A stretch of DNA of 64,000 nucleotides, taken from NCBI GenBank assembly GCA_964019425.1, contig OZ025842.1:62001-126000 (forward strand), written 5' to 3'. This document shows positions 2,155-28,062 of the stretch, in pieces (within the stretch, counting starts at the first letter, position 1; each line of letters starts with the position of its first letter). The translations under genes were made by a program, and so were the position numbers. This DNA comes from Flectonema sp. DT1601 (lineage: Eukaryota; Euglenozoa; Diplonemea; Diplonemida; Diplonemidae). The notes under the pieces were generated by a model that saw nothing but the letters and a program-made list of their open reading frames with translations, was not told where the DNA came from and made no database searches.

Positions 2155-4329
2155 CTACTTACGAGTCCACACACCGATTGGACAGGTGCCTGACAAGAAC
2201 TCTCCATCACGAATAGGCAGAGCATATGGAAGTGACGAGGATTCCTGGAAGTCGAAATCCGTAGAAAGTGCGGCCTTCAGCGCATCAAAGCTCTTTACTG
2301 CGTTACCGTCCTTGTCGAGGTAGCCTCCCAACCAGTTTTGTTTTTGAGTAGATCCATTCTTCCAGTCAAAGGTACTTGCGAACACCAAAACTGAGCCAGC
2401 GTTCATTCTATTCTTCAGCTCGCCTAGGAATGTAGTCGGCTGGTATACTCTCTCTAGTAAATTGATGTTAACGAGAACCATGTCGTATGCCTTCAAGTGA
2501 GCATGCAGGTTAGCAGGGTCTGACTGCCAGAATGTAGTGGTGTGAATAACTTGTTCAGCATCGATGTCGGATGCTCTGACGTGACGGTCAACCTTTAGGT
2601 CTCCCTCAGATGGAGCGGACCACTTTGTTTGTTGGCATTCACGCATCTGACATCCAGGCATGATGAAACGAGCGCTGAAGTCAATTCCCTGAACTTCTGA
2701 AAAAAATTTCGCTAATTCAAAAGAAGATCTTCCCGATCTGCATCCGATGTCAGCAGCGAGTGTTTGCGAAGAATCGGTCTGCTTGTTGTACTTTTTGTAG
2801 GATTCAACAGCGTAGTTTGCGATTTCAACTGGGAAACCCTTGGTCTTTTCACTCTCTGGTCTTGGACCGTAGTGGAATTCACTGTATTGATCTACTACAG
2901 GATCATTTGCATAGAATCCTGAGTACTCATTACAAGGTTCCGCAACCAAGTAACGAATTCCAATAAACTGATAAAAGTGACGTCTGAAAGCGAATCTCGC
3001 GTCTCTAGAGGAGGCGGTACCGGTTGCGATCCAACATCCTCCCTTTTGGATTGCGTGGTCTCCGTCAAAGGTTGGCATCGAGAAGTCATCGTACAGCGGA
3101 TGAACTTCAAAGTCTTCGAGTGGACCAGTTGGGGTTTCAGTGTGCTGCCAAACATTACCAACAACATCATAGAATTCACCCTGTTTGAACATATCAACTG
3201 GACAGGTGGAAGTAAACTTTTCCAAGTTTGTGTTACCTGGAGCCTCCTTCCACTCCCAGTGGTCTTCCTTCACGTTTCTGTCAAAGAGAAGTGACCATTC
3301 CGACTCAGTTGGAAGACGAACATGCTGTCCGATCTGCTTACCCTTCCAGTTACAGAATGCCTTCGCTTCGTGGTTGTTAACTTCACACGGCCAAGACCAA
3401 GGCATATCAATCTCCTCAGTCAGAGTACGGAGTTTGTAGTCATCTCCATCTCCTTTAATCCAAAAGTGTGGCATCGTAGCGGATCTGAACTTCTTCCAAC
3501 CTTGACCTTCCTCAGTCCAGAGCTCTTCATTTTGGTATCCACTATCCTTCATGAAGGTGAGGAACTCTTTGTTGCTTACAACGAACTTTGATGCCTGAAA
3601 TCCTTCGACTTCAGAAGTCTGAGTACCGCAGTCGACATCCCATCCGAAGATTGGACCACTCTTTGGGCGACCCACTTGAACTACACCTGGCGCAACGTCG
3701 ATTAGCTCATTTTCTGGGGCGGCACTGGATTGATCAGGGCACAGCTTCCAAAATGGAGTTTGCTTCACCATCTTAAGTGGAAGTTCTCTAATCAAAACTG
3801 CTGACGTCTCAAGATGAATACGCTCGTGTTCAATTCCCATCAGAATTGGGAACATTGCTGAATCCCAAGTGATTGGCATGGAGAACTCAACTTCATCGAT
3901 GTACTTGTTGAGACGCTCTCTAACCTGATTACGGTAATTCTTAACTTCAGATGAAGGAGGGAATTCATAATGAGTTTCTGACAGGTCATCCCACTGCATT
4001 TCGTCAACACCAATAGCAAAGGATTCCTCATACAAAGGATTAATACGATCAAGGTATCCTCCTAGAGCCAACTTGTTAATAAAAAAGGTAGCTGTATGTC
4101 CAAAGTAAAATATGTGCGGATGTCTCAATCCGTGAAGAGGCTTCATTTGGAAAGCTTCCTCAACGGCAATGGTTTCGTACAACTTTTCAAAGATGGTGTA
4201 CGTGTTGTTGAAGTATTCCTTAATCTCAGCTCTCTTACTTGGAACGTCTCCGGAAGTCATAATTGGGGACTTGGTAACGCGAAGCTTCAGCTCTTCGTCT
4301 GTCATCTCAATGATAGGTTGGGATCCCAT
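2155..4329 (-). CDS. ovoA: 5-histidylcysteine sulfoxide synthase / ovothiol synthase (OvoA)
   Basis: This 724-residue protein has the three-part OvoA layout. An N-terminal DinB-like helical domain (about 30-200) carries the iron motif H168-x3-H172-x-E174 and a likely third His ligand at H78. A formylglycine-generating-enzyme-like sulfoxide synthase domain spans about 215-470, with the GGCW and RDARFAFRRHF signatures near its end. A SAM methyltransferase domain follows (about 520-724), glycine motif DIGCRSGRSS. The family joins cysteine to histidine using O2 and Fe(II), then N-methylates the ring, giving the antioxidant ovothiol. The methyltransferase domain separates OvoA from EgtB, which stops after the FGE part. 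The ORF is intact and full length. ATG at 4329 is supported by the family N-terminus and an acceptor-like AG about 35 nt upstream. Ovothiol is well known in trypanosomatids, which fits a euglenozoan. Confidence 0.93.
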   Translation of the reverse strand: MGSQPIIEMTDEELKLRVTKSPIMTSGDVPSKRAEIKEYFNNTYTIFEKLYETIAVEEAFQMKPLHGLRHPHIFYFGHTATFFINKLALGGYLDRINPLYEESFAIGVDEMQWDDLSETHYEFPPSSEVKNYRNQVRERLNKYIDEVEFSMPITWDSAMFPILMGIEHERIHLETSAVLIRELPLKMVKQTPFWKLCPDQSSAAPENELIDVAPGVVQVGRPKSGPIFGWDVDCGTQTSEVEGFQASKFVVSNKEFLTFMKDSGYQNEELWTEEGQGWKKFRSATMPHFWIKGDGDDYKLRTLTEEIDMPWSWPCEVNNHEAKAFCNWKGKQIGQHVRLPTESEWSLLFDRNVKEDHWEWKEAPGNTNLEKFTSTCPVDMFKQGEFYDVVGNVWQHTETPTGPLEDFEVHPLYDDFSMPTFDGDHAIQKGGCWIATGTASSRDARFAFRRHFYQFIGIRYLVAEPCNEYSGFYANDPVVDQYSEFHYGPRPESEKTKGFPVEIANYAVESYKKYNKQTDSSQTLAADIGCRSGRSSFELAKFFSEVQGIDFSARFIMPGCQMRECQQTKWSAPSEGDLKVDRHVRASDIDAEQVIHTTTFWQSDPANLHAHLKAYDMVLVNINLLERVYQPTTFLGELKNRMNAGSVLVFASTFDWKNGSTQKQNWLGGYLDKDGNAVKSFDALKAALSTDFDFQESSSLPYALPIRDGEFLSGTCPIGVWTRK

Positions 4330-9567: not shown

Positions 9568-12500
9568 TTACATGGTTTCGACCAGATACTTTCGCTGGTT
9601 GGGAGATGTGAGCTGTTTTACGGGGGTTTTTATAAAAATAGTTATTTCATTCAATTAGTACTTTAAATAAGAAAAGGTAAAACATACATTATGACTTTCA
9701 GAGCTAAACGGAGTGACTGGAGCAAAAATATCTATTTCAGGTGAGCGTAGTGTGGCAGGGTTAACACTGCTGGTTCCTCCAGCAGCTTGAAATCTTCGGG
9801 TTAGCGGACTTCCTGATCCCAACCAATCAACATTTGGTCGTTCTCTAATGTCGAGACCAACTTCAAAATTACGAAGTGACTTCTTCCCATCTATCAAATC
9901 AGTCAGGTGGTTTGTTAAGAAGGTTATGGTCGCAGCAGGTCCATTCTCCAACTGCATTACCTTGTGAGTAGTACAACCCGTCGCACATCCAACGCAACTA
10001 TTGTGATTGCAATCAACGCATTTCAAAACACTTATCATCTCAAGACACTCGCCACATTTCCTCTCTGTTTTTACTTTCGCAAGGATGTTCTTCGCTTTTT
10101 CCGCCGCATGGTTGTCACCACGAAGTGCTTCGTGTACTATCTTATTAAAAGGAGTACCCCAAGTGGTATCTACTGGGTGATCTGTATTGAATCCCCAGGA
10201 ATCTCTACAGTTGGACATCGTTACACAATTCAATTCGTTAATTAATACGACCTCATCATCACCGATGTTCCAAATATCAATTAGACGAATATGATTAGCA
10301 GCAGTTGGGTCATCAGTAATACCCGAGTGACCAGGTATCGATCCGCTCAGTACCATTGCTCCAATGTCTTGTGCGAATATAACGGTTGCGATTGCTGTTT
10401 CAACTGGAGCTCCAATAGCGAGGATGTTTCGCTGTGTATCAGTTCCGACTTTTCCGTGAACTACTCTTCCTGTTGATAGACCTATCTTAAGCATCCCTCC
10501 CCAGCTCTCAAATGGACCAACTTGACCCCACCCGGCGCTGTGGATCGCAACTCCGAATCTCGTCGATTGAATTACGTGTTGTTGACGTTTACCACTCATC
10601 CCCCAGGCGATGAGTATCATACCTCCCATTACAGATTGTGTTACTCCTTCAGTCTTCGCAATATTCTCAAGTAGAATTGAGAACAGATGTCCAACAGAGT
10701 CTGGAACATCTAATCCCTGTTTTAAGTATCGATAATTTATTTTAACTGCAGCACAACTAATAACGTGAGACATGAACGGTAACTTCTTAGCTCGCAACGT
10801 TGGAGAAAGGACTGAAGTGAAGTGCGACTGCGATGCGATGGATTCCATGCCACGTGCAGCAGGCGTATCTTTTTGCTGACGGGTAGTCAGGTAAGTCACT
10901 ACTTCTGGTTTACGCTCAGCAACTTCCTGCGGTATGACAATTGTAATGTGACTGAGAGTAGCAATTCCTCTCAAAGGGATCTTCCCAAGAGGATTAGTTA
11001 CGAGACTTTCTTTTTGAGCTTGTGTTAGGCAAGCCATGATCTCTTCAGTCACAGCAACAGCACCACCAGCACAGAGTTCTTCCACGCGAGCAGACTTATT
11101 CACTGTTGAACCAAAAAAGTCGAGTCTGCCGGTGATCGGATTCAGTTGTGCGTCAACTGGTCCGTAATGCATTCCAATACGTACTCTTGGTCCTTTCCAT
11201 AAAACTTGACCTCTGTCGTCTCGAATTTCCTTACAAAGGGGAGCATCTAACAATGAGGGTGGCCACTCGGCTTCCTTCAAAGCAAGTTGTACGCCGATGG
11301 CAAAGTCCATCGCTGCCTGTGGAGTTTCAAAAGCTACCATGAAAGCATCTCCGATTGTTTTAATTTCGTAACCTTCAGTTAAGGCAATGACTTCTCTAAT
11401 TACGGCGTTGTGCTTTTCGAGACCAACTTTCATTCCGGTACTAGAAAATTCCCACAGAAGCGTCGACGACTGAATATCTGTGAACACCATCGCTACGTTT
11501 TCAGGCGGCTTATCGTGAAAGCGTTTCTCAACAGCTGTGAAAACGTAAGTTTCTTCTTCGTTCTCAACTGCGAATGTGCCGTCAATCAGAGATGGAGGCA
11601 GAAACGGTTTATAAGACGACAGGTTCTCGAGAAGATTATTAAGAGCGTCCAGAAGTGTGAAAGGAACCAAATCAGCCGACAGCTCAATTTGTTTATTTGC
11701 CTGAACTAAATCTAAAGTAACTAATGAAGTTGCGATATCTTCTGTTAGTGAGATCGCTGAAACCATTCTATCGTCTTCAACTTCTCCAATGTAGAAAGTA
11801 TCAAGCTTCTGTCTGGCTGTCACACTGTGTTTAAATGCTAAGAATGTATCTGTTGCATCTTTCCCGGCAGATAAAAGAACTATTTCAGCCCCACCAGGAT
11901 GACTATTCAACCAATCCTTAACAGCAAACACACGTCCTTCAATTACTACCCAAGGGTCGTCAGCATCACAGTGCTTTTCTATTTCTGCCCATCCAATCTT
12001 TCCCTCAGTGAGGTTAATTAATCTCGCTAAACGTTGTCTTCCTGTTACTAAGTAATTTCTCTGAAGAGCTTCTAGGAAGATGGCAGCTGAAAGGTTGAAA
12101 GTAATTCCAATGATGGACGCGATTTGAAGAGAATCAGAAACTGACGAATCAGTTGTTGAGAGTTTTTGAATTCCCGTAAACACTTGGTAGAATGCAAGCA
12201 CTACAGCTATCCTTCCAACAAGTTTGTGAGTAAAAGAGAAGTACCTCCTACCCCTTGACCGAGCTGTTGGGAATAGTAAAGATCCAATGACTCCCATAAT
12301 AGGCTGCACGGACATTAGAATAAATATTACCAATCCAAGCAGATTGTGTTCTCCCGTGTCTTTTTCATTGTTATCTCTGAACTTAAGTATCGCTATTACA
12401 ATGGCAGCGATCGTACAGAACACTCCTGACATCATAAATGCGATGTGAAGTCTGAATGCGATACCAGTCATGCCTCTTCGAATTGAGTTCCCCAAACCGA

Positions 12501-15500
12501 ATACTGGCTTCCCGTAACGTTTTATTAAAATTCCAAACGGTAACAGGTAGCACCAGGCAGCGACCATTAACGCACCGTGTGCAGTGCGGTAGACTTCTAT
12601 TCCTGATGATTGGCTTACCGTTTCACCGGAAGCAAAATTGAGTGAAAATGATGCCATCCCATCAAAAGGGTGCTGTGCCAACTGTTCAACTGTCCCGTCC
12701 CTCGCTACGTTAATATTCACTGCGGCAGCAAAGGTAGCTGAGTTTCTCGTAAATTTAATAAATTGATTACCACCAATGTTCTCTGAGACAAATGTTGTGA
12801 TTCCCAACTCAGTTGCAACATTCGCATCCTCACGAACACCACCAACTGACTGAGCTACGATATTGTAAGGAAGTATTTTAGTACCTCTCTCACTTGATAT
12901 TATTCCCTTAGCAGGTACCATCAATCCAGCTCTGGTTGGAAATGAGATACCAAACCAACCAGTTAATTCAGAACGGACGGCGATGTCAATTGTAGGGGAG
13001 GTCCCATCCCACCTCCAGTGAACAGAAATACCAGAAATAGTTGTTGTTATCATACAATCATAATTAGTTACATCTGAGGATGTGCATGACGTGGGTGGTT
13101 GAGGGGTGCTTGGCTGAGGAGTTGCAGTGACCATAGGAATCGGAACATCACTCTCACATCCCTGAACCCTACAATTTCCATCACCTACTGTACTCGTAGC
13201 ACTTTGATACAGTCCGTGTAGAGTACAAAATGAAAAGGCTGTAACTTCGGTACTTTCCGGAGGTATCGCAAATGTCAAAATCGCCGGCTCTTCACCAAAC
13301 CATTTACCAAATCCTAACACGGTACCAGTTTGATCTTTTACATAAATAGATGAGATAAAGTGACTCGAAGACGGATCAGTTGGATGTGCTAAACTAACAT
13401 TATTAGTAAGAGTACCAATACCAACGGTCACAACTCCTCTTCTGTTTGATAAAAGTGTAATTTGTGGTGTGTGTCTTGCGTTAGCATCAGTTGGAGTAAA
13501 AGGTTCACTTTGCTGATGATCTAATTGTTGGCGACGTAGTAATTCAGCTTCTTGCACTTTGAATTCTGGACAGCTATCAGGTGATTTTGGGAAGCAGTTC
13601 GACATCTTAACGGAATTGCATGAAAATGCGACATTCGTAGTGGAAGAAATAGCAGCACTCGAACTCTGAAATAAACCATGCTGATTACAGAAAGCGTAGG
13701 CTATGATTGAAGTAGTTCCTTGTGGTACATCAAATACTAATCGTGGTAGTCCATCAGGTCCTCCACCAGATAGTTGAGTCATTGCTATTATAACATTGTT
13801 CTGATCTTCAACATATATGTTTTCAACAAAATGAACGAGAGAAGGATCTGAACTCACAACTGTTGAATGAATAGGGTCGGTTGCTACATTGCTGACGGTA
13901 CCTTTTCCAACAGTTATTGTTACAGTGGTACCAGAGATTTCAATAAAAGGAGTGTGTTTTAAATTATCTTCTGTCGGAGCTTGACCCGTAGAGGTATTAT
14001 GCTCCGCCAACTGCCTTCTCAGAAAGTTATTCTTAACCGTTTGAAAGTAACACTCTGCCGAGTCTTCCTTCACAAACTCCGACCGACAGTTGCTGATTAT
14101 TGAACAGAAAGGTGATATTGGTAGTGAGCTTAGTGTTTGCGAAGCACTTTTTTGCAACCCGGAAGTTAAACCAAAAACTCCGACATGCACCTGACTCACA
14201 TTACTGGAAATCGGAAATGTTGCGACATTCAAACTGTCGGGTGGCGTTGAGTAGATTTCCATTCCAATAATAGTATCCGTAGCAACATCAACAACAAACA
14301 CTGATTCGATATCAGATAAACTTGTACCACTTGGCATCGTAACGTCTATTGCACTTGGTGTACTATTGGCTGAAATAACAATGTTGTTATTATCACTCAT
14401 TGATCCTGCTAAGCGAAGGTATTCAGTTCTAAGACTTTCAAACATATCACAAGATGAAGTCACATTATTGTACTCTGTTGAGTTAGCAAAGCAACCAGTT
14501 AATGAACAACTTCCTTCAGATCTTAATGAACCTGCAGGAACAGTTACTGGTTGACCTCTAAATAATCCGAATCTGCTACAGAAAGAATATGGTGTTAAGG
14601 TCTGCTCTCCAGAGATACCTTCCGGTAATGTGAATGAGAGGGTCGGTATAACATCCGAAGTACTGCCAAGTCGAGTCATTGCAATAATAACGTCATCGCT
14701 ATTTACTACGTAGATGTGAGTAATAAAGTGAACCTCATTAACATTCGTTGCCGAATGCATTGCACTACTTGAACCTACTGACACCTCTCCAGCACCGTTT
14801 GAAATGCTTAGAACAGGTGTGTGGTTCACATTCGTATCGTTCGGGTTGTAAGCTGCATTTTCACTGTGCTCAGAGAGCTGGCGTTGAAGCAACTTTGATC
14901 GTTGAATTACAAACACTTTACAATTGAACTCCTCCACTCCTCCACATGAAGTTACCCCACAAACAAGTGAACCACTTCCCTGACTCGATGACGGAACAGA
15001 AACAATAGAACTCTGAAACAATCCATGAGTATTGCACATCGAGAATGCTGTTAGAGATGTCGTACCCGAAGGTATCAAAAATTCAAGAGTAGGAGGAAAC
15101 TTAGTGGCCGGCAAGTAGGATGCCGCAATGATCTTTCCCGTTTGATCTTTCACAAATAACATTTCAATGTAGTGAACAACAAGAGGATCTTCGCTTGACA
15201 CACTTGGGTGGATAGGATCAGCAGCGTTTCCACTAGTAGTTCCCAGCCCAACAGTCACCTTCGCACTAGTTCCCGTAATGGTAACGTATGGCGTATGTAA
15301 GGCGGTGTTGGCAGATGGCGGGAAAGGCGAGGTTTGCTGATGCTCGGAAAGCTGGCGCCTCATTGCATCCGCTTCCATCACCGTGAATTGCACACAGACA
15401 CCATTCTCAATGCCAATAGTGTCCTCGTAACAGGGAATCACTGCACATGCAGCAAGAGCAGTTCCGGTTGCAGTAACCTGCGACACCTCACTTCCATGAA

Positions 15501-16890
15501 GCCCGTGATTGTTGCAGAAGGAAAACGCTTGAATGCTGGTTGTCTCTCGCGGTATCTGAAATGTCAGAGAAGGTTGGCTAGTTGTTCCACTCAACAAGTT
15601 CATTGCAATAATAATATTATCCTGGTTAACTACGTATATAGTCGAAACAAAGTGAGTAGCATTACGATCAGTAGGATGCACCAGAGAAGTATCACCAGTG
15701 ACGGTACCAGTTCCAACAGTTACTGTTGCTTCAGTACCAGTAATAGTAAACACAGGTGTATGCTTCCTATTCCCCATTATTGGAGTGAATGGAGTACTAC
15801 GTTGGTGGTCGAGCTGCTGGATTCGGAGAAGATCAGCCCTTCGACTTTCAAACAACGGACACTTTTGCTGTCTGCGAGCCGCACCTCCGCATTCAGCAAC
15901 ACCACAAACAAGTGAACCACTTCCCTGACTCGATGACGGAACAGAAACAATAGAACTCTGAAACAATCCATGAGTATTGCACATCGAGAATGCTGTTAGA
16001 GATGTCGTACCCGAAGGTATCAAAAATTCAAGAGTAGGAGGAAACTTAGTAGCCGGCAAGTAGGATGCCGCAATGATCTTTCCCGTTTGATCTTTCACAA
16101 ATAACATTTCAATGTAGTGAACAACAAGAGGATCTTCACTTGGTTCACTTGGGTGGATAGGATCAGCAGCGTTTCCACTAGTAGTTCCCAGCCCAACAGT
16201 CACCTTCGCACTAGTTCCCGTAATGGTAACGTATGGCGTATGTAAGGCGGTGTTGGCAGATGGCGGGAAAGGCGAGGTTTGCTGATGTTCAGAAAGCTGG
16301 CGCCTCATTGCATCCGCTTCCATCACTGCGAATTGCACACAGACACCATTCTCAATGCCAACAGTGTCCTCGTAACAGGGAATCACTGCACATGCAGCAA
16401 GAGCAGTTCCGGTTGCAGTAACCTGCGACACCTCACTTCCATGAAGCCCGTGATTGTTGCAGAAGGAAAACGCTTGAATGCTGGTTGTCTCTCGCGGTAT
16501 CTGAAATGTCAGAGAAGGTTGGCTAGTAGTACCACTCAACAAGTTCATTGCAATAATAATATTATCCTGGTTAACTACGTATATAGTCGAAACAAAGTGA
16601 GTAGCATTACGATCAGTAGGATGCACCAGAGAAGTATCACCAGTGACGGTACCAGTTCCAACAGTTACTGTTGCTTCAGTACCAGTAATAGTAAACACAG
16701 GTGTATGCTTCCTATTCCCCATTATTGGAGTGAATGGAGTACTACGTTGGTGGTCGAGCTGCTGGATTCGGAGAAGATCAGCCCTTCGACTTTCAAACAA
16801 CGGACACTTCGCCGACTGGCCATCAACCAGAGTGACCAGGTGGAGGAGGAGGATGAGAAGTTGAAGGGTGTGTGTGAATAAATACATCAT
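9568..16890 (-). CDS. Superoxide-reductase-repeat / DOMON / cytochrome b561 / cytochrome b5 / adenylyl cyclase receptor
   Basis: A signal peptide (1-25) leads into eight Cys-bounded modules (starting near 28, 183, 347, 499, 653, 815, 946, 1107). They resemble superoxide reductase centre II (desulfoferrodoxin family): H-TP, HP, HF/HY and CNxHG supply the four-His/one-Cys iron site. Modules 1-4 and 7 keep all ligands and 8 keeps C-x2-H; 5 has lost the last His and 6 nearly everything. Then follow DOMON (about 1280-1423), a b561 core with paired His (1435-1600), cytochrome b5 (HPGG with H1664, and H1688), and a class III cyclase (1795-1950) with metal Asp 1805 and 1848, adenine-type Lys1844/Asp1924, and N1931/R1935. 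A degenerate cyclase (2050-2190) and a C-x2-C zinc module (2279-2311) end it. I infer an extracellular superoxide or redox sensor wired through haem to cAMP. A GTATGT donor at 9687 and an ACAG acceptor at 9613 suggest a 75-bp intron and final exon 9568-9612. Without splicing the ORF stops at 9655. Confidence 0.88.
9613..9687 (-). other. Predicted terminal cis-intron of the receptor gene (75 bp)
   Basis: It starts GTATGTTTTACC and ends GTAAAACAG. It is phase 0 and adds 14 residues ending LVETM before TAA at 9570-9568. It matches the short-intron style of the eL41 and elongin C genes here. The retained-intron ORF stops only ten codons past the donor, so protein comparison cannot decide. Confidence 0.55.
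14957..16803 (-). repeat. Two near-identical tandem 0.9-kb units encoding paired SOR modules
   Basis: Bases 14957-15858 and 15902-16803 align at an offset of 945 bp with only scattered differences. Each encodes one type-A module (KCPLFESRRADLL..) plus one type-B module (VCVQF..). A third copy is the neighbouring gene at 17413-18307. The near identity points to very recent duplication or ongoing gene conversion. Confidence 0.9.
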
Positions 16891-17354: not shown

Positions 17355-18386
17355 CTACAAGTCATCATGATCTAGTTGATTGATAACTTCTACACCTCCG
17401 CATTCAGCAACACCACAAACAAGTGAACCACTTCCCTGACTCGATGACGGAACAGAAACAATAGAACTCTGAAACAATCCATGAGTATTGCACATCGAGA
17501 ATGCTGTTAGAGATGTTGTACCCGAAGGTATCAAAAATTCAAGAGTAGGAGGAAACTTAGTGGCCGGCAAGTAGGATGCCGCAATGATCTTTCCCGTTTG
17601 ATCTTTCACAAATAACATTTCAATGTAGTGAACAACAAGAGGATCTTCGCTTGACACACTTGGGTGGATAGGATCAGCAGCGTTTCCACTAGTAGTTCCC
17701 AGCCCAACAGTCACCTTCGCACTAGTTCCCGTAATGGTAACGTATGGCGTATGTTTGAAGTTGCTGGTAGCTGGAACAAAAGGCTTTTCTTGCTTATGCT
17801 CGGAAAGCTGGCGCCTCATCGCATCCGCTTCCATCACCGTGAATTGCACACAGACACCATTCTCAATGCCAATAGTGTCCTCGTAACAGGGAATCACTGC
17901 ACATGCAGCAAGAGCAGTTCCGGTTGCAGTAACCTGCGACACCTCACTTCCATGAAGCCCGTGATTGTTGCAGAAGGAAAACGCTTGAATGCTGGTTGTC
18001 TCTCGCGGTATCTGAAATGTCAGAGAAGGTTGGCTAGTTGTTCCACTCAACAAGTTCATTGCAATAATAATATTATCCTGGTTAACTACGTATATAGTTG
18101 AAATAAAGTGAGTAGCCGCCCGATTGGTAGGATGCACCAGAGAAGTATCACCAGTGACGGTACCAGTTCCAACAGTTACTGTTGCTTCAGTACCAGTAAT
18201 AGTAAACACAGGTGTATGCTTCCTATTCCCCATTATTGGAGTGAATGGAGTACTACGTTGGTGGTCGAGCTGCTGGATTCGGAGAAGATCAGCCCTTCGA
18301 CTTTCAAAGATATCGCACTTCGCATTAACTTGGGCAATGAGGACTAAGAGGAGAAGTAAAGTTCTCCCAAATAAATACAACTCCAT
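17355..18386 (-). CDS. Secreted two-module superoxide-reductase-like protein
   Basis: This 343-residue protein has a signal peptide (MELYLFGRTLLLLLVLIAQ..), one type-A and one type-B SOR-like module, and a short tail, with no membrane segment. Both modules keep the H-TP / HP / HF(Y) / CNxHG ligand set expected for a mononuclear Fe(His)4Cys site. The coding DNA is nearly identical to the two unit copies in the receptor gene upstream, except around 17753-17790. I start at ATG 18386 because a good acceptor (TTTGTTTCCAG) ends 14 nt upstream; the in-frame extension beyond has no ATG. A soluble scavenger or decoy form of the receptor ectodomain is a plausible role, but inferred. Superoxide reductase activity is not proven because eukaryotic SOR homologues are poorly studied. 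Confidence 0.85.
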   Translation of the reverse strand: MELYLFGRTLLLLLVLIAQVNAKCDIFESRRADLLRIQQLDHQRSTPFTPIMGNRKHTPVFTITGTEATVTVGTGTVTGDTSLVHPTNRAATHFISTIYVVNQDNIIIAMNLLSGTTSQPSLTFQIPRETTSIQAFSFCNNHGLHGSEVSQVTATGTALAACAVIPCYEDTIGIENGVCVQFTVMEADAMRRQLSEHKQEKPFVPATSNFKHTPYVTITGTSAKVTVGLGTTSGNAADPIHPSVSSEDPLVVHYIEMLFVKDQTGKIIAASYLPATKFPPTLEFLIPSGTTSLTAFSMCNTHGLFQSSIVSVPSSSQGSGSLVCGVAECGGVEVINQLDHDDL

Positions 18387-20634: not shown

Positions 20635-20667
20635 TAAAAAAAAAAACGATAAATAAAAAAAAACGGG

Positions 20668-21014
20668 TTCATATGGAACATGGAGCAATGGGTTCAAACC
20701 TGACAGCACTCAGCTGTAGTTAAACAAGTCAATACTATTATCTTTTAGTATACATCTTCTCCATTCTTTCTCCTTATCTCCTAATTCTATGAGGACAACT
20801 TTAGGGCCCTTTCGGCTCGCAGGTGACCCAGTGGTCTTTGGCCACCGTCTTTACGTTGATCTCTCGCTTTGCAAGCACAGTGTCAGGAGCTGCCGATCCG
20901 TGGAGGTCCTCTAACGGACTCCTGACAGTTGCACGCGTATCTTTGTCTTGTTAAAAATAAGAAGAGCGTTGGTGCTCAGAATATGTGACAAAATAAATAA
21001 ATAAATAAAAAAAC
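20668..21014 (+). mobile_element. 5'-truncated LINE copy (3' end only), inverted relative to the main copy
   Basis: On the plus strand this repeats the last ~12 codons and 3' UTR of the main LINE (its match is 21170-21549 on the minus strand). It ends in an AAATAAATAAATAAAA-type tail. It lacks a ~33-bp block (AAAAAAAAGCAAAATGAAAG..) present in the main copy's 3' UTR. The two arms form an inverted repeat of roughly 330 bp around a ~155-bp spacer. Confidence 0.85.
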
Positions 21015-21516
21015 GGAGCCTACCTATGTTTCCCGTGTTTTCCAATTTGTCAGACTTAAACCAAAAGAAAGTATAAAAGAAAGACAAAACAAAGAAGTGA
21101 AAAGAACAAAAAAACAAAGAGTCTGGAAGCACAGACGAGTGTAACCAAAAAAAAGAAAAAGAAAAAAAACGTTTTTATTTTTTTTATTTTGTCACATCTT
21201 TCTTGTCTCTCTTTCATTTTGCTTTTTTTTATATTCTGAGCACCAACGCTCTTCTTATTTTTTTTTTAACAAGACAAAGATACGCGTGCAACTGTCAGGA
21301 GTCCGTTAGAGGACCTCCACGGATCGGCAGCTCCTGACACTGTGCTTGCAAAGCGAGAGATCAACGTAAAGACGGTGGCCAAAGACCACTGGGTCACCTG
21401 CGAGCCGAAAGGGCCCTGCGGTTGTCCTCATAGAATTAGGAGATAAGGAGAAAGAATGGAGAAGATGTATACTAAAAGATAATAGTATTGACTTGTTTAA
21501 CTACAGCTGAGTGCTG

Positions 21517-24500
21517 TCAGGTTTGAACCCATTGCTCCATGTTCCATATGAATCCGGCAAGGGCATGCAAGTTACGTGTAGCAAACATGAACGGAAGACT
21601 CAAGGCAGTCTTCGAGATTCTTGCTTCCTCAATAATTTCACCAATAGTTCCTTTTCGAATGTACATCAGCGCCGCAGCAGTGCATTCCAGTATCAGATGA
21701 CGTGGTGAAGACTCCGTTCTTTGACAAAAGAGACACATCCGAGGAACTTCTTTAATTCTAAGTAAGTGATGAGATCCAGTCCTGAATCTAGCTATTCTAA
21801 TTTCTGATGACCTCAGCATGTTGGAGGGGTAACGAGCAGCCTTGTAACCCCCGGTGGCATCCAGGTATTGTCTCAGCATGACACGCTTTACAGGGGGCCT
21901 CGCAGTCTCAGCACCTTCAAGCATCCTGCCAAATAGCTTCCTACCGGTTTCGCGTGCAACCCTCGACTTGTGTGCAAAGAAGTCCATTTTTGAATTAACT
22001 GGCTTCCCATCCAAATCTTTAGAAGCTGCCTTAGCCAGTTTATCAGCCTTGTCGTGAGGATCAATCCCTACATGCGATGGGATGAATTGAAGATGGACAA
22101 AGGTCCCCAGTTGTTTGATTTTGTTCAGTATCGACAGCGAATTCACCCTCCTTTGAGCCACAATACCTCCCTTCAGTTCATCTAAATTCGACTTCGAGTC
22201 ACTAAATATCCTTGTGATCCCGCAGGTAGATCCAAACGGCGAGTTTATCTTGCCAATTTCATAAACCAATAATTTCAGAGCTATCTGTTCAGACTTGTAA
22301 CTACTTTCGGTGGCCACAAGTCTGGATGCCCTAGTACACTCTACCGGTAAGACCTGCACGGCCGCTGCACCAGCAGTGTAGTTCTTAGGGTCATGAGATC
22401 CATCAGTATATATCGTGGAGTCAGAAGGTCTGAGTTCCCTGCAGTATTCATCAAACTTTAGTTTATCAGCTGCAGCATCGACAGTTTTGGAGTGTCCGTA
22501 GCCACACGATATCGAGAGGTTCGGTACATCTGCCCACGGTTCAATACTGTCAGGTTGTACTATATCTTGTATTGAGATCTGTCGATCCTCAGGCGGTAGT
22601 TTTAAACTCCATAGACCACTAGCAATTGAACGAGTTGAGGGGACCCACTTCAGAGATCTGTACCTGAAGAGGGCTGTCCTTGCTTGTTTTTCAATCAGAA
22701 GGCGCATTGGCAGCATATCCGCTTCCCACAACAGCGGCAAGGAGCGTGTAAAGTCACTGCAACCCGTGATCCTCCTCGCGACTTTCTTAAGACTGAGATC
22801 GATTGGCCCAAGTTGTTCATCAGTTAGGAATGGGCCGAAGCTTTCCAGACCGTAGGATACCCTTGAGAGGATGTAGAGGTTTTTTACCATCTGTAATGAC
22901 TTAAAATCGAGGTTATAAGGTTCGAGCTTCCTCAGTAGAGCCAGTCCCTTCCTAGATTCGTTCAGTATTTTATCAACTTGCGTATCGTACTTGAGATCAT
23001 CATCGATGTGGACCCCAAGGTACTTTACGCTGTCCACCATCGGCAAGAGAACCGATGTTAGTAATCTTACCCGAGTCCGTTGCGGGCCAGCGAGTATGAC
23101 CCTCATTAAATCATCAGTGCTAAGGACTTCAGTGTCATCGATCTTTAGAATTGTTTCGCCACTTTTTAATATTGGCCTCTTAGAGTCATTTGGTTGCAAC
23201 ATCTTCCTCAAATCATCCCTGTTCACCAGATAGAAATTGTCTTTCACCGTCCTGGGGAAGCCCAGTCTCCAGTACACATTCTTCGGACATCCCACCGGCA
23301 TCCCGCACGTTTTTGAAACAGACAAGGCCATGTCGTTGTCCCTACACCAAGTATCAACGAGTCCCAGTATCCATTGAGCCTTCTTATTCGTACTTGATAG
23401 GTCCCTATCCGATATGACACAGGCAGTGTCATCGGCATAAAGAGCCGAGATAGAACCAGTTTTCTCCAAAGTCTTTGCGAGGTCATCCACATAGATCAGG
23501 TATAGAAGCGGACCCACGATTGAACCTTGAGGAACACCCATTGAGACCGTTTTGTATGAACTAAAGTTTCCGTTAGCTTCCACCCTTGTGCGTCTTCCTG
23601 AAAGGAAGTTGGCTATCCACCCAATGAACGGGGAGGGAATGCCCATAGCTTTCATTTTTGCAAGGAGTTTGGTGTGATTTATTCTGTCAAAAGCTTCCGT
23701 GAAATCGAATGACAGTAATATAGAACTCTTCTGGGTTGCATCGGCCTCATGTAGTGCATTCACAAGTAGGGAAATCTGTTCACATGTGTTCCTTCCTCTT
23801 CTAAAGCCAGCTTGGATCGAAGACAGAACTTTGTTCTGGGTGAGCCAAAACATCAATCTGTCATAAATAATTCGTTCTAGAACCTTACCAACTACTGAAG
23901 TCAGCGTAATTGGTCTATAGCTTGCCACCTTTTCTTTTGGTTTGCCAAGTTTGTGAACAGGCTTGATCAAGCCTTCCTTCCAGATCTTCGGCACTTCGGT
24001 CGACAACCAGGAGTCGTTTACTAGAGACAGAAGGTGTACCTTGCCCAGCGGGGATAAATTCTTAATCATCGTTCCATGAATCCCATCCGGACCAGGAGCC
24101 TTGCCTGACTTAACTTTTTTCAGTGCAAATTCCAGTTCAGACATTACTACAGGCCTACACACATCTTTGTAGTCGCTGGGTTTAACAGACGGTGATTTCA
24201 ACTTCGGTCTATTTGAAGTCTTGACATATTGGTCTAGAAACTTTTCGGGCAGCTGTTTCTCATCGAACTCAGTAATACAAATATCCTGCCCCCTATCAGC
24301 TTCAAGGTCTTTAATTTTCTTGAATGCAAAGGCGAAGCCTTCACCCTTTGAGAGCCTTTCGGAAATAAACTTGCCTTTGGCTTGCTTGGTCTCAGGGGCA
24401 GAGGCATTCCACAATCTCCTCCTCTTCCCTTTTATCCTCAGTCTCCTTCTAATGTTGTTCCTTGCAGACGCCAGCAGGATGTGGTTAAACGTCCGAGCTC

Positions 24501-24978
24501 TAGTCCCAACGTCACCGGAAGAACTCGCCTTGCTCAGTCTGTAATCAAGATTATGACGAAATGAATACCAACTTGCTGTATTGAAGTCCCACACTGACTT
24601 TTTTGAAGCGTGGTTGTCGGACGGTTCAAGTGATGTGAATGTATCAAAGGTAGCGTACAGCGGTGAATGATCAGATCCATGCTTAACACCATCATCAATT
24701 AGTTCGAACTGCAGGAGTTGTAATTCTTCGTGATGGAGAATGACATCAGGTGTAGTTCCATGTCTTGGTAAGGAAGCTAAACCAGGAGTATTCGCAATCA
24801 GAAGGTCTTCCTTATCAGTCCAGTTGAGGAGATCACATCCCTTGATATCAGTTTTCTTTGACCAATACCTGTGATGTGCATTGAAGTCACCAGCTATGAT
24901 TGATTTCTTGCCCTGATCAAGGGAGTACCGATCGAAGTCGATCCTTGAACTTGGCGGAGAGTAAATATTTATAACTGA
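21517..24978 (-). CDS. LINE ORF2, downstream part: C-terminal endonuclease, reverse transcriptase, RNase H, zinc knuckle
   Basis: The open frame enters in the second half of the APE endonuclease (INIYSPPSS, GDFNAHH, GSDHSPL). It continues through reverse transcriptase (VASYRPITLTS, FDFTEAFDRINH, GVPQGSIVGPLL, YADD) and RNase H (YTDGS near the start, IFSDSKSN, SHVGIDPHDKADKLA). It ends with a CLFCQRTESSPRHLILEC zinc knuckle and TGA at 21519-21517. There is no start codon of its own at the left edge of the frame. The first half of the endonuclease lies in another frame (24969-25349), showing one frameshift. RT and RNase H motifs look intact. Confidence 0.9.
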   Translation of the reverse strand, partial: SVINIYSPPSSRIDFDRYSLDQGKKSIIAGDFNAHHRYWSKKTDIKGCDLLNWTDKEDLLIANTPGLASLPRHGTTPDVILHHEELQLLQFELIDDGVKHGSDHSPLYATFDTFTSLEPSDNHASKKSVWDFNTASWYSFRHNLDYRLSKASSSGDVGTRARTFNHILLASARNNIRRRLRIKGKRRRLWNASAPETKQAKGKFISERLSKGEGFAFAFKKIKDLEADRGQDICITEFDEKQLPEKFLDQYVKTSNRPKLKSPSVKPSDYKDVCRPVVMSELEFALKKVKSGKAPGPDGIHGTMIKNLSPLGKVHLLSLVNDSWLSTEVPKIWKEGLIKPVHKLGKPKEKVASYRPITLTSVVGKVLERIIYDRLMFWLTQNKVLSSIQAGFRRGRNTCEQISLLVNALHEADATQKSSILLSFDFTEAFDRINHTKLLAKMKAMGIPSPFIGWIANFLSGRRTRVEANGNFSSYKTVSMGVPQGSIVGPLLYLIYVDDLAKTLEKTGSISALYADDTACVISDRDLSSTNKKAQWILGLVDTWCRDNDMALSVSKTCGMPVGCPKNVYWRLGFPRTVKDNFYLVNRDDLRKMLQPNDSKRPILKSGETILKIDDTEVLSTDDLMRVILAGPQRTRVRLLTSVLLPMVDSVKYLGVHIDDDLKYDTQVDKILNESRKGLALLRKLEPYNLDFKSLQMVKNLYILSRVSYGLESFGPFLTDEQLGPIDLSLKKVARRITGCSDFTRSLPLLWEADMLPMRLLIEKQARTALFRYRSLKWVPSTRSIASGLWSLKLPPEDRQISIQDIVQPDSIEPWADVPNLSISCGYGHSKTVDAAADKLKFDEYCRELRPSDSTIYTDGSHDPKNYTAGAAAVQVLPVECTRASRLVATESSYKSEQIALKLLVYEIGKINSPFGSTCGITRIFSDSKSNLDELKGGIVAQRRVNSLSILNKIKQLGTFVHLQFIPSHVGIDPHDKADKLAKAASKDLDGKPVNSKMDFFAHKSRVARETGRKLFGRMLEGAETARPPVKRVMLRQYLDATGGYKAARYPSNMLRSSEIRIARFRTGSHHLLRIKEVPRMCLFCQRTESSPRHLILECTAAALMYIRKGTIGEIIEEARISKTALSLPFMFATRNLHALAGFIWNMEQWVQT

Positions 24979-25349
24979 TTGACATCATCATTAATACAAA
25001 TACCCAAAGATTCAACTACACCTCTCATCGAAGGGACGTAAGTCTTAATACAGGTGTGAGAAAGGCCTCTTTTGACTAGTGTGATGAGACCACCACCCCT
25101 ACCAGGTCTATCTCTTCTGTAACAAATATAATTCCAGTGAGATAGAGGTTTACTACATGAAGTCTCTTGAAGACATAAGACATCTGGAGAGAATTTACCC
25201 AATATGTGACAAAGAAACTCTTCCTTATTTGAAATTGTCCTACAATTCCAACTGATAACATCCAATTTAGAAGAAGGGCCCGGATTAGTTTCAACATCAC
25301 CAGCAGAGATGAGGAGGTCTCTTTTGGTTTCGACAACGTGTCTTTCTAG
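24969..25349 (-). CDS. LINE ORF2, N-terminal part: 2A peptide and first half of APE endonuclease
   Basis: The frame starts directly after the TGA that ends ORF1 and is in the same frame as ORF1. It runs through a 2A-type motif, then the endonuclease start (DVISWNCRTIS, LCLQETSC, DRPGRGGG). It has no ATG until deep inside the endonuclease, so it seems built to be made as an extension of ORF1. The frame stops at 24969 and the endonuclease resumes in the RT frame. Confidence 0.85.
   Translation of the reverse strand, partial: LERHVVETKRDLLISAGDVETNPGPSSKLDVISWNCRTISNKEEFLCHILGKFSPDVLCLQETSCSKPLSHWNYICYRRDRPGRGGGLITLVKRGLSHTCIKTYVPSMRGVVESLGICINDDVNQL
25275..25325 (-). other. 2A ribosome-skipping peptide motif
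   Basis: Codons on the minus strand read KRDLLISAGDVETNPGP, matching the strict 2A consensus D-V/I-E-x-N-P-G-P with the usual hydrophobic upstream stretch. The skip point would fall between the last Gly (25280-25278) and Pro (25277-25275). It sits 24 codons after the ORF1 stop and 6 residues before the endonuclease starts. 2A motifs are known at the head of trypanosome L1Tc and ingi LINEs. Confidence 0.9.
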
Positions 25350-26873
25350 TCAGTTCATCTCATCCTCGTCACACCAATCGATGTTTGACATGCCTGATAA
25401 GTTACCATTCGGGTCACCTTCGAAGCTGTCAAGTTGCATCATTATCTGCTCATCCACAGACATTCCAGCTGTAGGGACGGGTGCTTTCTGAGCGTTCTGG
25501 TTGGCAAATGTTGGGAAGAAAGTTGGTCCATTAGCTTTGACCGTTTTGGCTTTGGTTTTCTTCGTCAGGCATCTGATGACCAAGTATTTATCATCACCCA
25601 TCGCAACGTAGGTAGGCGGTTTATAAACTGAGTGTACGATGAGCATCCTGCTGTTCCCTTTAACAAACGAGCTAACAGTAGTGTGCTTCCAGTCCAATTG
25701 CAATATATCAGAGATCTGATCCCTCGAGTATTTAAGAAGTCCTCTGGCTTCAACTTGATATCTTTCCCCTGCTGGAAGGGGTGGTTGCACCTTGTTGCCG
25801 AGTCTGAATCGAATGTCACTCTGAGCGGAAGGGTGAGCCCTGAGTCCAAAACACGTTTTAAATCTAGCAAGGTAAAAGTCACCGCAGCCTTTTGCTGACT
25901 GGGCGGTGTATTTTGCTTCCAAATAGTTGTTGGTTTTGAAATGAATCGATGGCCATTTTTCATCGCCATTTGACCATGAGGGTAGAGTGAAGAACAGAAA
26001 TTCACTGGTTCCGTTTAGGGATAGTACCTTCTTCACCAAAGTTTGATTGAGCCTCAGACACATAGACGAGTGAGATTCCGCGGTTTTGAAGTTGAAAAGG
26101 TCCAAGGACTTTGAAATCCCCTCCAACTTTTCCTTTGATTTAGCGACTAGTTGATCCCTGGTACTTTTACTCCAGTCATTGATTACAATTACCGGGTTCG
26201 TTCTGTATTTCATGTCTTCGGACACTTCTTGTCTGTCAGCACGTTTGCCACATATGTGAGTGACGTAGCACGTTCTGAATCCCGCCGAGCCGTCTTTGTT
26301 GATCGCAGGGAGGGTTCTCTTTTCTGACGATGGGTCGATTGACCTTTTTGATAATGCTGCCCATGAGAACATGACGTTTTTGCTAGTAACTCGGTCTTTC
26401 AGTTTCATTTTTTCTGATTTGACCACTTCGTATTGTTCCCTGTTGTTAACGAAAACGAATCCGTTTTCAGGGGTCACCTTGTAATCCACTGCGATGTCGA
26501 ACTTGACTGTTTTACGTTCAAGAACTTCATCGAAGTAGAAGAACGACTCGTGCACCTTCCACGATGGCTGAGTCGGTTCTTTCGCTTCTTCGTTATGCTG
26601 CGGTTTGTTGGCTGGTTGCGGCGTCTGTTGTTGCTGCTGCTGTTGCTTCGGCTGTTGTTGCTGTTGTTTCAGCTGTTGTTGCTGCTGTTTCGGTTGCTGC
26701 TTCTGAGGCGGCTGTTTCTTCTGTACAGACTCGTTGTTCGCTCCAAATTTTAAAATTCTGGCCAGAAGGCCGCTGATCTTCTTCACCGCCAACTTCTCGC
26801 AGAACCCGTCGGCGGCAAACATCTCCAGAAGCTCCGTGGCTTCACTCATTAATTCAACAAATGAATTAGACAT
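25350..26873 (-). CDS. LINE ORF1 protein
   Basis: This 507-residue protein starts MSNSFVELMSEATELL. It has an N-terminal helical segment, a Gln/Lys/Pro-rich tract (about 45-90) and a mixed alpha/beta body with no CCHC knuckle that I can see. It lies immediately upstream of, and in frame with, the 2A-endonuclease frame, parted only by TGA at 25352-25350. The role is presumably RNA binding, by analogy with other LINE ORF1 proteins. I start at ATG 26873 because the upstream extension is only poly-Lys from an A-run. Confidence 0.75.
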   Translation of the reverse strand: MSNSFVELMSEATELLEMFAADGFCEKLAVKKISGLLARILKFGANNESVQKKQPPQKQQPKQQQQQLKQQQQQPKQQQQQQQTPQPANKPQHNEEAKEPTQPSWKVHESFFYFDEVLERKTVKFDIAVDYKVTPENGFVFVNNREQYEVVKSEKMKLKDRVTSKNVMFSWAALSKRSIDPSSEKRTLPAINKDGSAGFRTCYVTHICGKRADRQEVSEDMKYRTNPVIVINDWSKSTRDQLVAKSKEKLEGISKSLDLFNFKTAESHSSMCLRLNQTLVKKVLSLNGTSEFLFFTLPSWSNGDEKWPSIHFKTNNYLEAKYTAQSAKGCGDFYLARFKTCFGLRAHPSAQSDIRFRLGNKVQPPLPAGERYQVEARGLLKYSRDQISDILQLDWKHTTVSSFVKGNSRMLIVHSVYKPPTYVAMGDDKYLVIRCLTKKTKAKTVKANGPTFFPTFANQNAQKAPVPTAGMSVDEQIMMQLDSFEGDPNGNLSGMSNIDWCDEDEMN

Positions 26874-26874
26874 C

Positions 26875-26901
26875 TTTTTTTTTTTTTTTTTTTTTTTTTT
26901 T
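26875..26901 (-). promoter_or_regulatory. 27-nt poly(A) leader directly before LINE ORF1
   Basis: On the sense strand 27 consecutive A lie between the short 5' end and GATG of ORF1. This could be an ordinary homopolymer expansion or an A-rich translation leader. Confidence 0.45.
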
Positions 26902-26914
26902 GTGTGCACAGCAG

Positions 26915-26937
26915 GTTCCTTCGACCTGCTTTGCTGT
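26915..26937. repeat. 23-bp flanking direct repeat, right copy
   Basis: Exact copy of 20612-20634. It lies just upstream of the LINE 5' end. Confidence 0.7.
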
Positions 26938-27111
26938 TTGCGCTGTTAGGCGCGGTTGTTCTTTCTTTCTTCTGTAAACTTTCTTTTTGTGGGGATTGGG
27001 GATGGGATGGGGGGTTCCCGTAGGCTTCGTATCTTCTTTGTTTTCTTTGTTTATCAATTACTAAAGAGTTCAGTTTACTTCCTCATTTGGTCTAAGAACC
27101 GCATCTTTAAA

Positions 27112-28062
27112 TTATGGATTTCCAGGTCTTCCGAGTATTTCAGCTATTTGGTCCAGTACCACTACAAAGTTGGACATGCTGCGTTGATTCTCCTTTAAGA
27201 AGCAGTCCTCTACTTTACTCACTACTTCACCAGTTTCGGTATTAATCATGCTGTGTATGTACAATGATCTCATCTTTTGGATACACCAGTGGTTGCACTT
27301 GAAAAGCACATGATGCGGTGTTGCAGTATCTCCATGACAGAAGATGCACTGTTCGTTTATTCCTTTTAGTTTAAGAGATCTACAGTGTCCAACTCTGAAG
27401 CGGGACATTAGGACTTCTTGTGGTCTCGTCAGTTCTTCTACAAAAGGTGGATGCCTCTGTTCGCCGGCTCCAATCCACTCCTCTCGTTTTCTTCTCTTGT
27501 GAAAAGTCATAAGGGTTCCCATATCCAGTCTAGTAACTAAACTCTCGAGTACCACACTGTCATCTGGAGGTTTCTTTATCGTACCTGCAGCGTGTTTTGC
27601 CACCTTGTCTGCTATTTCATTATACAGCACATCCATATGTGCCGGGACATACTGCATATTAATATTAACACCTCTGTGTTCCAGTTTCAGTGCTAACTTC
27701 CAGATTGATGCGTTTGTAGCAGATTTCTGTTCTTCAGGTCCTCGCTCAAGTGCCTGTATTAGCGACATTGAGTCAGTTAGAATATGCGTCTTTGTTGTGG
27801 GAAGTATTCCTTCGGATGCCTTTTTGTTTTTCAGGAGTATCCTCATCGCTTGTTCCACGGCTATCTGTTCAGTTCTGTAGGAGCTTCCTGCTACAGGTAT
27901 TCTGAATCCGGTCATGCTAACTTCCTTACCCTTCACTATTATCACAGATGCTCCTGACTTAGTCATGTACGTCTTCGTCCTATGTCTAATAGACCCATCT
28001 GTGTACACCTTCACGTCTTCAATTGGTAGACCGGCTAAAAAATATGAAGAGGAAATAATCAA
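27112..28062 (-). mobile_element. 5'-truncated LINE of a second family (RNase H and zinc knuckle only)
   Basis: This open frame of about 316 codons starts near the RNase H domain (VYTDGSIRHRTK, HILTDSMSLIQ, YVPAHMDVLYNEIADKVA). It ends with a CIFCHGDTATPHHVLFKC knuckle and a short tail. It has no RT or endonuclease upstream, where the sequence turns A-rich at about 28030-28160. That is a typical 5' truncation. It differs clearly in sequence from the neighbouring LINE, so it is a separate family. The frame is uninterrupted, suggesting a recent insertion. Confidence 0.8.

Follow-up and report, generated by a model that had tools for sequence, protein, structure and literature searches.

A single Flectonema reading frame joins superoxide reductase-like modules, a putative haem relay and an adenylyl cyclase

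One reading frame carries the modules from ectodomain to cyclase

We analyzed a stretch of 64,000 nucleotides (the window) from the diplonemid Flectonema sp. DT1601, namely positions 62,001 to 126,000 of contig OZ025842.1 in GenBank assembly GCA_964019425.1 (89.5 Mb, 92 contigs). An open reading frame (ORF) on the minus strand at 9655-16890 encodes a protein of 2411 aa, with an ATG start and zero internal stops. From the N-terminus, a hydrophobic segment is followed by eight modules resembling superoxide reductase (SOR), a DOMON-like region, a cytochrome b561 core, a cytochrome b5, transmitter helices, a class III adenylyl cyclase domain (AC1), a cyclase-like pseudo-domain (AC2) and a Cys-rich module, an order that was drawn by hand on top of Pfam profile matches. 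A preliminary description of this DNA had placed one continuous chain at 9568..16890; the uninterrupted frame of 2411 codons bears out the continuity and the 16890 start, whereas the 9568 end sits 87 nt beyond the stop codon. The profile search proposed there was run, and Desulfoferrodoxin (PF01880, E = 1.5e-42, five stretches), eukaryotic b561 (PF03188, E = 1.2e-9, aa 1438-1577, above cut-off), Cyt-b5 (E = 3.8e-19, aa 1634-1704) and Guanylate_cyc (E = 3.3e-30, aa 1794-1975) all match this single protein, with DOMON alone left without a match.

Residues 1-24 (16819..16890), with a hydrophobic stretch at 4-22, form a likely signal peptide, as judged from hydropathy and sequence. The balance of K/R over D/E is 5/0, 3/4, 4/0 and 0/2 in loops 1 to 4 of b561, and 6/3 after the fifth transmembrane (TM) helix. 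These loop charges place the SOR modules and DOMON outside and b5 and the cyclase inside, so that the protein probably resides in the membrane with its ectodomain out and its cyclase in.

That two genes had been fused by mis-assembly was considered and rejected, because the identical fusion occurs in two proteins from outside this genome: P0004 (1841 aa, from a transcriptome and labelled a complete ORF) and P0006 (1819 aa, from a genome contig) each unite SOR, b561, b5 and cyclase in a single chain, with the DOMON region visible by alignment only. The same architecture, which the preliminary description suggested looking for in other organisms, thus recurs, and in the transcriptome-derived P0004 the ectodomain and the cyclase do not come from separate genes. 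Within this genome, PF01880 has eight matches in four ORFs, which are the present gene, a two-SOR neighbour, an SOR-b561 protein just outside the window (L017) and a protein on C82.

Most SOR modules retain a complete set of iron ligands

Eight SOR-like modules had been described, six of them with most or all of the Fe(His)4Cys ligand set, and alignment refines this count. All five ligands are present in module 1 (16393..16797), in which a Lys precedes the first His, and in modules 2 (15913..16332), 3 (15448..15852), 4 (14968..15387), 7 (13621..14046) and 8 (13159..13563), the last of which adjoins DOMON. Modules 3 and 4 are recent duplicates of modules 1 and 2, respectively; the ratio of nonsynonymous to synonymous substitution between recent SOR duplicates is 0.42-0.66, with few changes behind it, and was not used. 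Module 5 (14512..14913) keeps four of the five ligands, its last His being replaced by Phe, and the degenerate module 6 (14050..14427) keeps none. The AlphaFold model of module 1 (pLDDT 87.9) returned the SOR fold in a structural search, with Ig-like domains among the weaker matches, and a profile built from 18 SOR modules of this genome matched SOR structures in the Protein Data Bank (PDB). Module 1 as modelled has the desulfoferrodoxin fold that the preliminary description had assigned to these modules, and their ligand sets suggest that they may bind iron and reduce superoxide.

Could the modules instead be a structural or ligand-binding stalk, an Ig-like sandwich in which the metal sites are leftovers? 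The Ig-like matches of module 1, the loss of every ligand in module 6 and of one in module 5, and the degenerate look, by eye, of module 2 in both P0004 and P0006 would fit such a stalk. However, all five ligands are kept in 15 of the 18 aligned SOR modules of this genome and, by eye, in three of the four modules of P0006, and the ligand Cys is missing only from the degenerate module 6 of the eight modules here. We regard a stalk as very improbable.

The origin of the modules was addressed by searches and a tree. In a single-module scan, which detects close relatives only, none of 153 pattern matches was confirmed as a prokaryotic relative of module 1, and tblastn of the SOR modules in phage records found nothing. 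In the SOR-module tree the modules of P0004 and P0006 pair by position (module 1, 95/95; module 4, 96/99), with 13 of the 17 inner branches open.

DOMON, b561 and b5 make up a putative four-haem relay

The DOMON-like region (aa 1269-1420, 12631..13086) was delimited by paralogue alignment and a model, and its candidate haem ligands, M1324 and H1407, were assigned by analogy to HYP1, an Arabidopsis protein of the CYBDOM (DOMON-b561) type. For the earlier DOMON assignment the signs are mixed. The C57 paralogue, a SOR-less protein of 1256 aa from the same genome, matches Pfam DOMON weakly (E = 8.8e-6, 26.4 bits, under the curated cut-off of 32.7) and aligns across the region, which is predicted to be all-beta; the match in the protein itself is missing. 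Among 12 aligned sequences, the Met column is kept in 11 and the His column in 10.

The b561 core (aa 1432-1608, 12067..12597), with five TM helices, was defined by Pfam, alignment and hydropathy or model. Its haem His residues pair, again by HYP1 analogy, as H1438/H1515 for the outer and H1482/H1555 for the inner haem. Cytochrome b5 (aa 1634-1704, 11779..11991; Pfam and alignment) has H1664 and H1688 as its axial ligands. The four b561 His and both b5 His are present in all 12 aligned sequences and, together with the profile matches, confirm the earlier assignment of both domains; a counterpart of the modelled ascorbate-binding Arg is found in 9 of 12 homologues. DOMON, b561 and b5 would all carry haem.

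The cyclase keeps its catalytic residues, and its transmitter stands at a fixed distance from b5

Alignment and modelling place the transmitter helices between b5 and the cyclase (aa 1704-1769, 11584..11781). AC1 (aa 1794-1975, 10966..11511) was recognized by Pfam, alignment and structural search. Its key residues D1805, K1844, D1848, D1924, N1931 and R1935, which we take to be the two metal-binding Asp, the base-selecting Lys/Asp and the Asn/Arg pair, are kept in 12 of 12 aligned sequences, in agreement with the catalytically complete cyclase described before. AC2 (aa 2047-2229, 10204..10752) appears as a degenerate second cyclase-like domain. The description of AC2 as a decayed cyclase is matched by predicted strands alternating with helices (block-mean pLDDT 74-95) and by a weak response to PF00211 (E = 0.0016 here, 2.5e-4 in P0005 and 0.19 in P0007, all under the cut-off), but not by any significant profile match, and profile-profile comparison of AC1 with AC2 gave a non-significant E of 0.47. 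Similarly, the "zinc module" at the C-terminus is a Cys-rich, zinc-finger-like stretch in the alignment (aa 2279-2311, 9958..10056), but its family matches are all non-significant (B-box, E = 0.12).

All 12 aligned sequences have a b5-transmitter distance of precisely 28 residues, whereas the linker that follows the transmitter is 20 to 37 residues long; the transmitter is also common to 12 aligned family cyclases without b5. Because the b5-transmitter spacing is fixed, redox coupling to the cyclase is favoured, in which the redox state of b5, or a movement linked to it, would gate the cyclase. The chassis, from DOMON to AC2, was modelled with a mean pLDDT of 80.4. A structural search with this model gave the trypanosome GRESAG4 cyclase as nearest solved relative; the results were filled by AC1 matches (model 534-742), so that the DOMON, b561, b5 and AC2 folds were barely probed.

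It is conceivable that the cyclase is a passenger, insensitive to redox state, on a trans-membrane SOR-DOMON-b561-b5 reductase whose task is to remove superoxide or to reduce iron. That the reductase part can stand alone is indicated by the cyclase-free L017 protein, about 11 kb away, and by proteins in which SOR is the sole clear domain. Against a passenger, b5 is kept between membrane and cyclase at the fixed 28-residue spacing, the catalytic residues are kept in every aligned sequence, and a constitutive extra would be hard to justify in a genome whose cyclase domains number 150 or more (216 candidates, 150 of them scored). We therefore judge a passenger cyclase somewhat unlikely.

Homologues carry exchangeable ectodomains on the same chassis

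Homologues were sought with the C57 paralogue as query, and 120 of 223 matches were listed; those with names include cyclases of Diplonema papillatum and Bodo saltans. In P0010, P0012 and P0015 a peroxidase domain (PF00141; E = 3.2e-20, 8.7e-18 and 1.7e-25) replaces the SOR modules. The peroxidase region of P0012, the only one so compared, can be aligned with ascorbate peroxidases and cytochrome c peroxidases and keeps the distal Arg-Trp-His and the proximal His, with Phe for the proximal-side Trp. P0003 carries several DOMONs, four stretches by Pfam and five by eye. None of the 10 PF00141 matches in the Flectonema genome falls in a listed cyclase ORF (150 of 216 candidates).

These variants bear on the idea of an iron or copper receptor, in which SOR-fold modules would capture metal, DOMON-b561 would reduce it and cAMP would report the supply. 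SOR modules are built around iron sites, HYP1 acts as a reductase on both ferric and cupric substrates, and P0003 provides a multi-DOMON chassis without SOR. However, the peroxidase-bearing variants point to reactive oxygen as the common theme, and a His4Cys set holds its metal tightly for catalysis, unlike a transport site. A metal receptor is thus unlikely in our view.

In the chassis tree, SOR bearers fall into two clades, one with the window protein, P0005 and the C57 paralogue (92/95) and one with P0004 and P0006 (96/99); a single origin of the SOR bearers is not rejected by this tree. A protein search with the full 2411-aa query returned one distant cyclase match, and one with residues 1-860 of P0006 returned P0006 itself only. 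Both searches are insensitive and uninformative on rarity, because P0004 was missed too. In a separate observation, P0023, P0026, P0045 and others, two of which bear the name of Diplonema papillatum, are fusions of an ammonium transporter to a cyclase (PF00909 + PF00211), perhaps another input on the same cyclase output.

A model of outward electron flow coupled to cAMP output

We propose, with about even confidence, that the protein is a single-chain trans-plasma-membrane redox receptor. In this model the extracellular SOR iron array would reduce superoxide (O2- + 2H+ + e- to H2O2), and after each turnover the oxidized iron would be re-reduced by the DOMON haem. Cytosolic electrons, supplied by ascorbate and/or the fused b5, would in turn reach that haem by way of both haems of b561. 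Electrons would run outward, the rate of extracellular superoxide reduction would set the redox state of cytosolic b5, and this state or a linked conformational change would pass through the transmitter helices to cAMP. The ectodomain is exchangeable: in relatives, the same chassis bears a haem peroxidase, which would act on H2O2, or extra DOMONs.

The outward direction is favoured because both exchangeable ectodomains, SOR and peroxidase, consume electrons, as in the SOR reaction given in the accessible part of PMC11869295. It is also favoured, by analogy, because HYP1 takes electrons from ascorbate in the cytosol and passes them to acceptors outside, and the ascorbate-site Arg has its counterpart in 9 of the 12 homologues. 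Redox potentials lie near 0 V for b5, at about +0.1 V for b561 and DOMON and at about +0.25 V for SOR, so that the path from b5 through b561 and DOMON to SOR runs downhill outward. The preliminary description had drawn the path inward, from extracellular superoxide or metal to b5, and we depart from it here. A precedent for such a path is E. coli CybB, a b561-type membrane protein that oxidizes superoxide and reduces quinone, but in the accessible part of its description CybB is a minimal four-helix protein without an SOR domain; moreover, SOR and peroxidase sites accept electrons and the characterized DOMON-b561 protein runs outward. Inward flow from superoxide or reduced metal through DOMON and b561 to b5 is therefore quite improbable.

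Several observations weigh against the redox receptor model. No transcript from the gene itself was observed, and the 2411-aa protein itself escapes the Pfam DOMON profile. The Lys before the first His, which has a catalytic role in SORs, is found in only three of the eight modules (1, 3 and 7). P0008 is without both DOMON ligands; the b561 match falls under the curated cut-off in 5 of 10 homologues scanned (P0003, P0008, P0009, P0010 and P0012), all of which keep the four His; and the ascorbate-site Arg is missing in all three peroxidase bearers. The C57 paralogue, P0003 and P0007-P0009, the last three without a Pfam match to SOR or peroxidase, show that chassis members free of both exist, and the chassis may therefore serve another redox input. 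The nearest homologue, P0005 (79% identity over the chassis), begins inside DOMON and has no ectodomain, being either an incomplete assembly or a genuine short form. With AC2 degenerate, cyclase activity would require either a dimer of AC1 or its pairing with AC2, and the pTM of 0.40 means that the chassis model supports the domains but does not establish the b5-cyclase geometry.

A broader claim, which we hold with somewhat less than even confidence, concerns a modular class of diplonemid receptors in which four haems (one in DOMON, two in b561 and one in b5) would connect an extracellular enzyme reducing reactive oxygen species with an adenylyl cyclase. Electron drain rather than ligand binding would then be the signal, and the extracellular flux of superoxide or peroxide would be read as the redox state of b5. 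To our knowledge, direct cellular sensing of extracellular superoxide is poorly understood. If the model is correct, a receptor that takes the electron demand of an enzyme as its input and relays it over haems to a cyclase, all within one polypeptide, would represent a new eukaryotic signalling principle, and the swap between SOR and peroxidase on a shared chassis would serve as a natural experiment. SORs would moreover be placed outside the cell in flagellates that are described as an abundant marine group (PMC10161547, accessible part).

Comparison with known systems

HYP1 shares the five TM helices, the two His pairs and the Arg near the inner haem, and its extracellular DOMON with Met/His ligands has a candidate counterpart in the DOMON-like region here; it consists of DOMON and b561 only, without an SOR or peroxidase ectodomain, b5 or cyclase. 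Like the trypanosome receptor adenylate cyclases (GRESAG4/ESAG4), the Flectonema protein appears to be a membrane receptor with a cytosolic class III cyclase; those receptors have one TM helix, a binding-protein-like ectodomain and no redox domains, in contrast to the five TM helices and SOR/DOMON ectodomain here.

The principle of a di-haem anchor, a redox relay and a cyclase is already known in bacteria. According to the accessible part of PMC4821796, in 30 bacterial class IIIb cyclases the catalytic domain follows a ferredoxin, itself preceded by a predicted di-haem membrane anchor; the R. palustris Q132R4-type cyclases resemble the present protein in having a predicted di-haem anchor, a cytosolic redox module and then a class III cyclase. 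The parts differ: the bacterial anchor has six TM helices and resembles the cytochrome b of fumarate reductase/succinate dehydrogenase, the relay is ferredoxin, and no extracellular enzyme is described in that part of the paper. In the Flectonema protein no ferredoxin is among the Pfam matches listed, and the redox domains matched are b561 (PF03188) and b5.

The SOR modules share fold and ligand set with the SOR/desulfoferrodoxin family, whose members are described, in the accessible portions of the literature, as soluble and acting on cytoplasmic superoxide, whereas here a repeated Cys-rich array lies behind a hydrophobic N terminus. The SOR tree of PMC6934886, as far as accessible, comprises Fornicata and prokaryotes only, with eukaryotic SORs in diplomonads. 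E. coli CybB likewise acts on superoxide as a b561-type membrane protein with two haems, but its accessible description has superoxide oxidized to O2 and quinone reduced, without SOR, DOMON, b5 or cyclase. In searches of the open full-text literature, with most subscription papers outside it, none of the papers listed describes the SOR-haem relay-cyclase combination, as judged by title and abstract start, and neither cyclases nor superoxide come up in the accessible parts of PMC10161547, PMC7052976 and PMC12697944.

Genomic context and further observations

Next to the gene, the minus-strand ORF at 17355..18386 (ATG at 18386; ORF and Pfam) encodes a two-SOR protein with a hydrophobic N terminus and 92-93% identity to modules 1-2 and 3-4. 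A phmmer search of this protein against the PDB gave no match. Its C-terminal HDDL resembles an endoplasmic reticulum (ER) retention signal, and the protein might be an ER superoxide reductase. The L017 protein (L017:4096-7113, on C63, same strand) combines SOR and b561 with a DOMON-like stretch seen by eye, has no cyclase match, and could be a pure trans-membrane superoxide reductase. On C82, L019:2993-6490 encodes six SOR modules, five of them with all ligands, followed by one C-terminal TM helix and a short tail.

Among eight b561 matches in the genome, two lie in ORFs that also match cyclase (this gene and the C57 paralogue); two short b561 ORFs (C42, C81) were outside the Pfam scan, and no cyclase is listed at either. 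C14:659400-661175 apparently holds one 780-aa ORF with the reverse order, cyclase then cytochrome b5, known from the matches alone. The genome also has eight Fe/Mn superoxide dismutase matches and 38 matches to the NAD-binding domain of NADPH oxidases (NOX) and ferric reductases; the latter suggest that possible superoxide sources exist. Nineteen NAD_binding_6 (NOX/ferric-reductase-like) matches, mostly with equal scores as in a tandem array, lie at C80:105478-212528.

There are 783 exact copies of TTTCTGTACTWTATTG in the genome against 0 of a backward-read control, many of the listed copies being spaced by about 610 or 623 bases. Two copies were inspected and both extend to CCAACGATTCTAAAGCTACAGTTTCTGTACTTTATTG, followed by GT in an array copy on C20 and by a T run in an isolated copy on C1. 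We take CCAACGATTCTAAAGCTACAGTTTCTGTACTTTATTG to resemble the diplonemid spliced leader; among the papers listed by a literature search, none contained the expected leader sequence. The putative leader and the named homologues both fit a diplonemid host.

Elsewhere in the window, 2155-4329 (minus strand) encodes an FGE-sulfatase domain and then a sub-threshold methyltransferase match, a layout that to us resembles ergothioneine/ovothiol synthases. At 20664-21556 and 21517-28062, a 297-nt inverted repeat (98%) accompanies two ORFs, one with reverse transcriptase and one with RNase H; together they may form another retroelement in addition to the following one. The minus-strand ORF at 28799-40726 (3975 aa; about 60% GC within a region of about 40% GC) has reverse transcriptase, ubiquitin C-terminal hydrolase and RNase H1 N-terminal domains and a weak OTU protease-like match, and would be a large retroelement with deubiquitinase-like domains.

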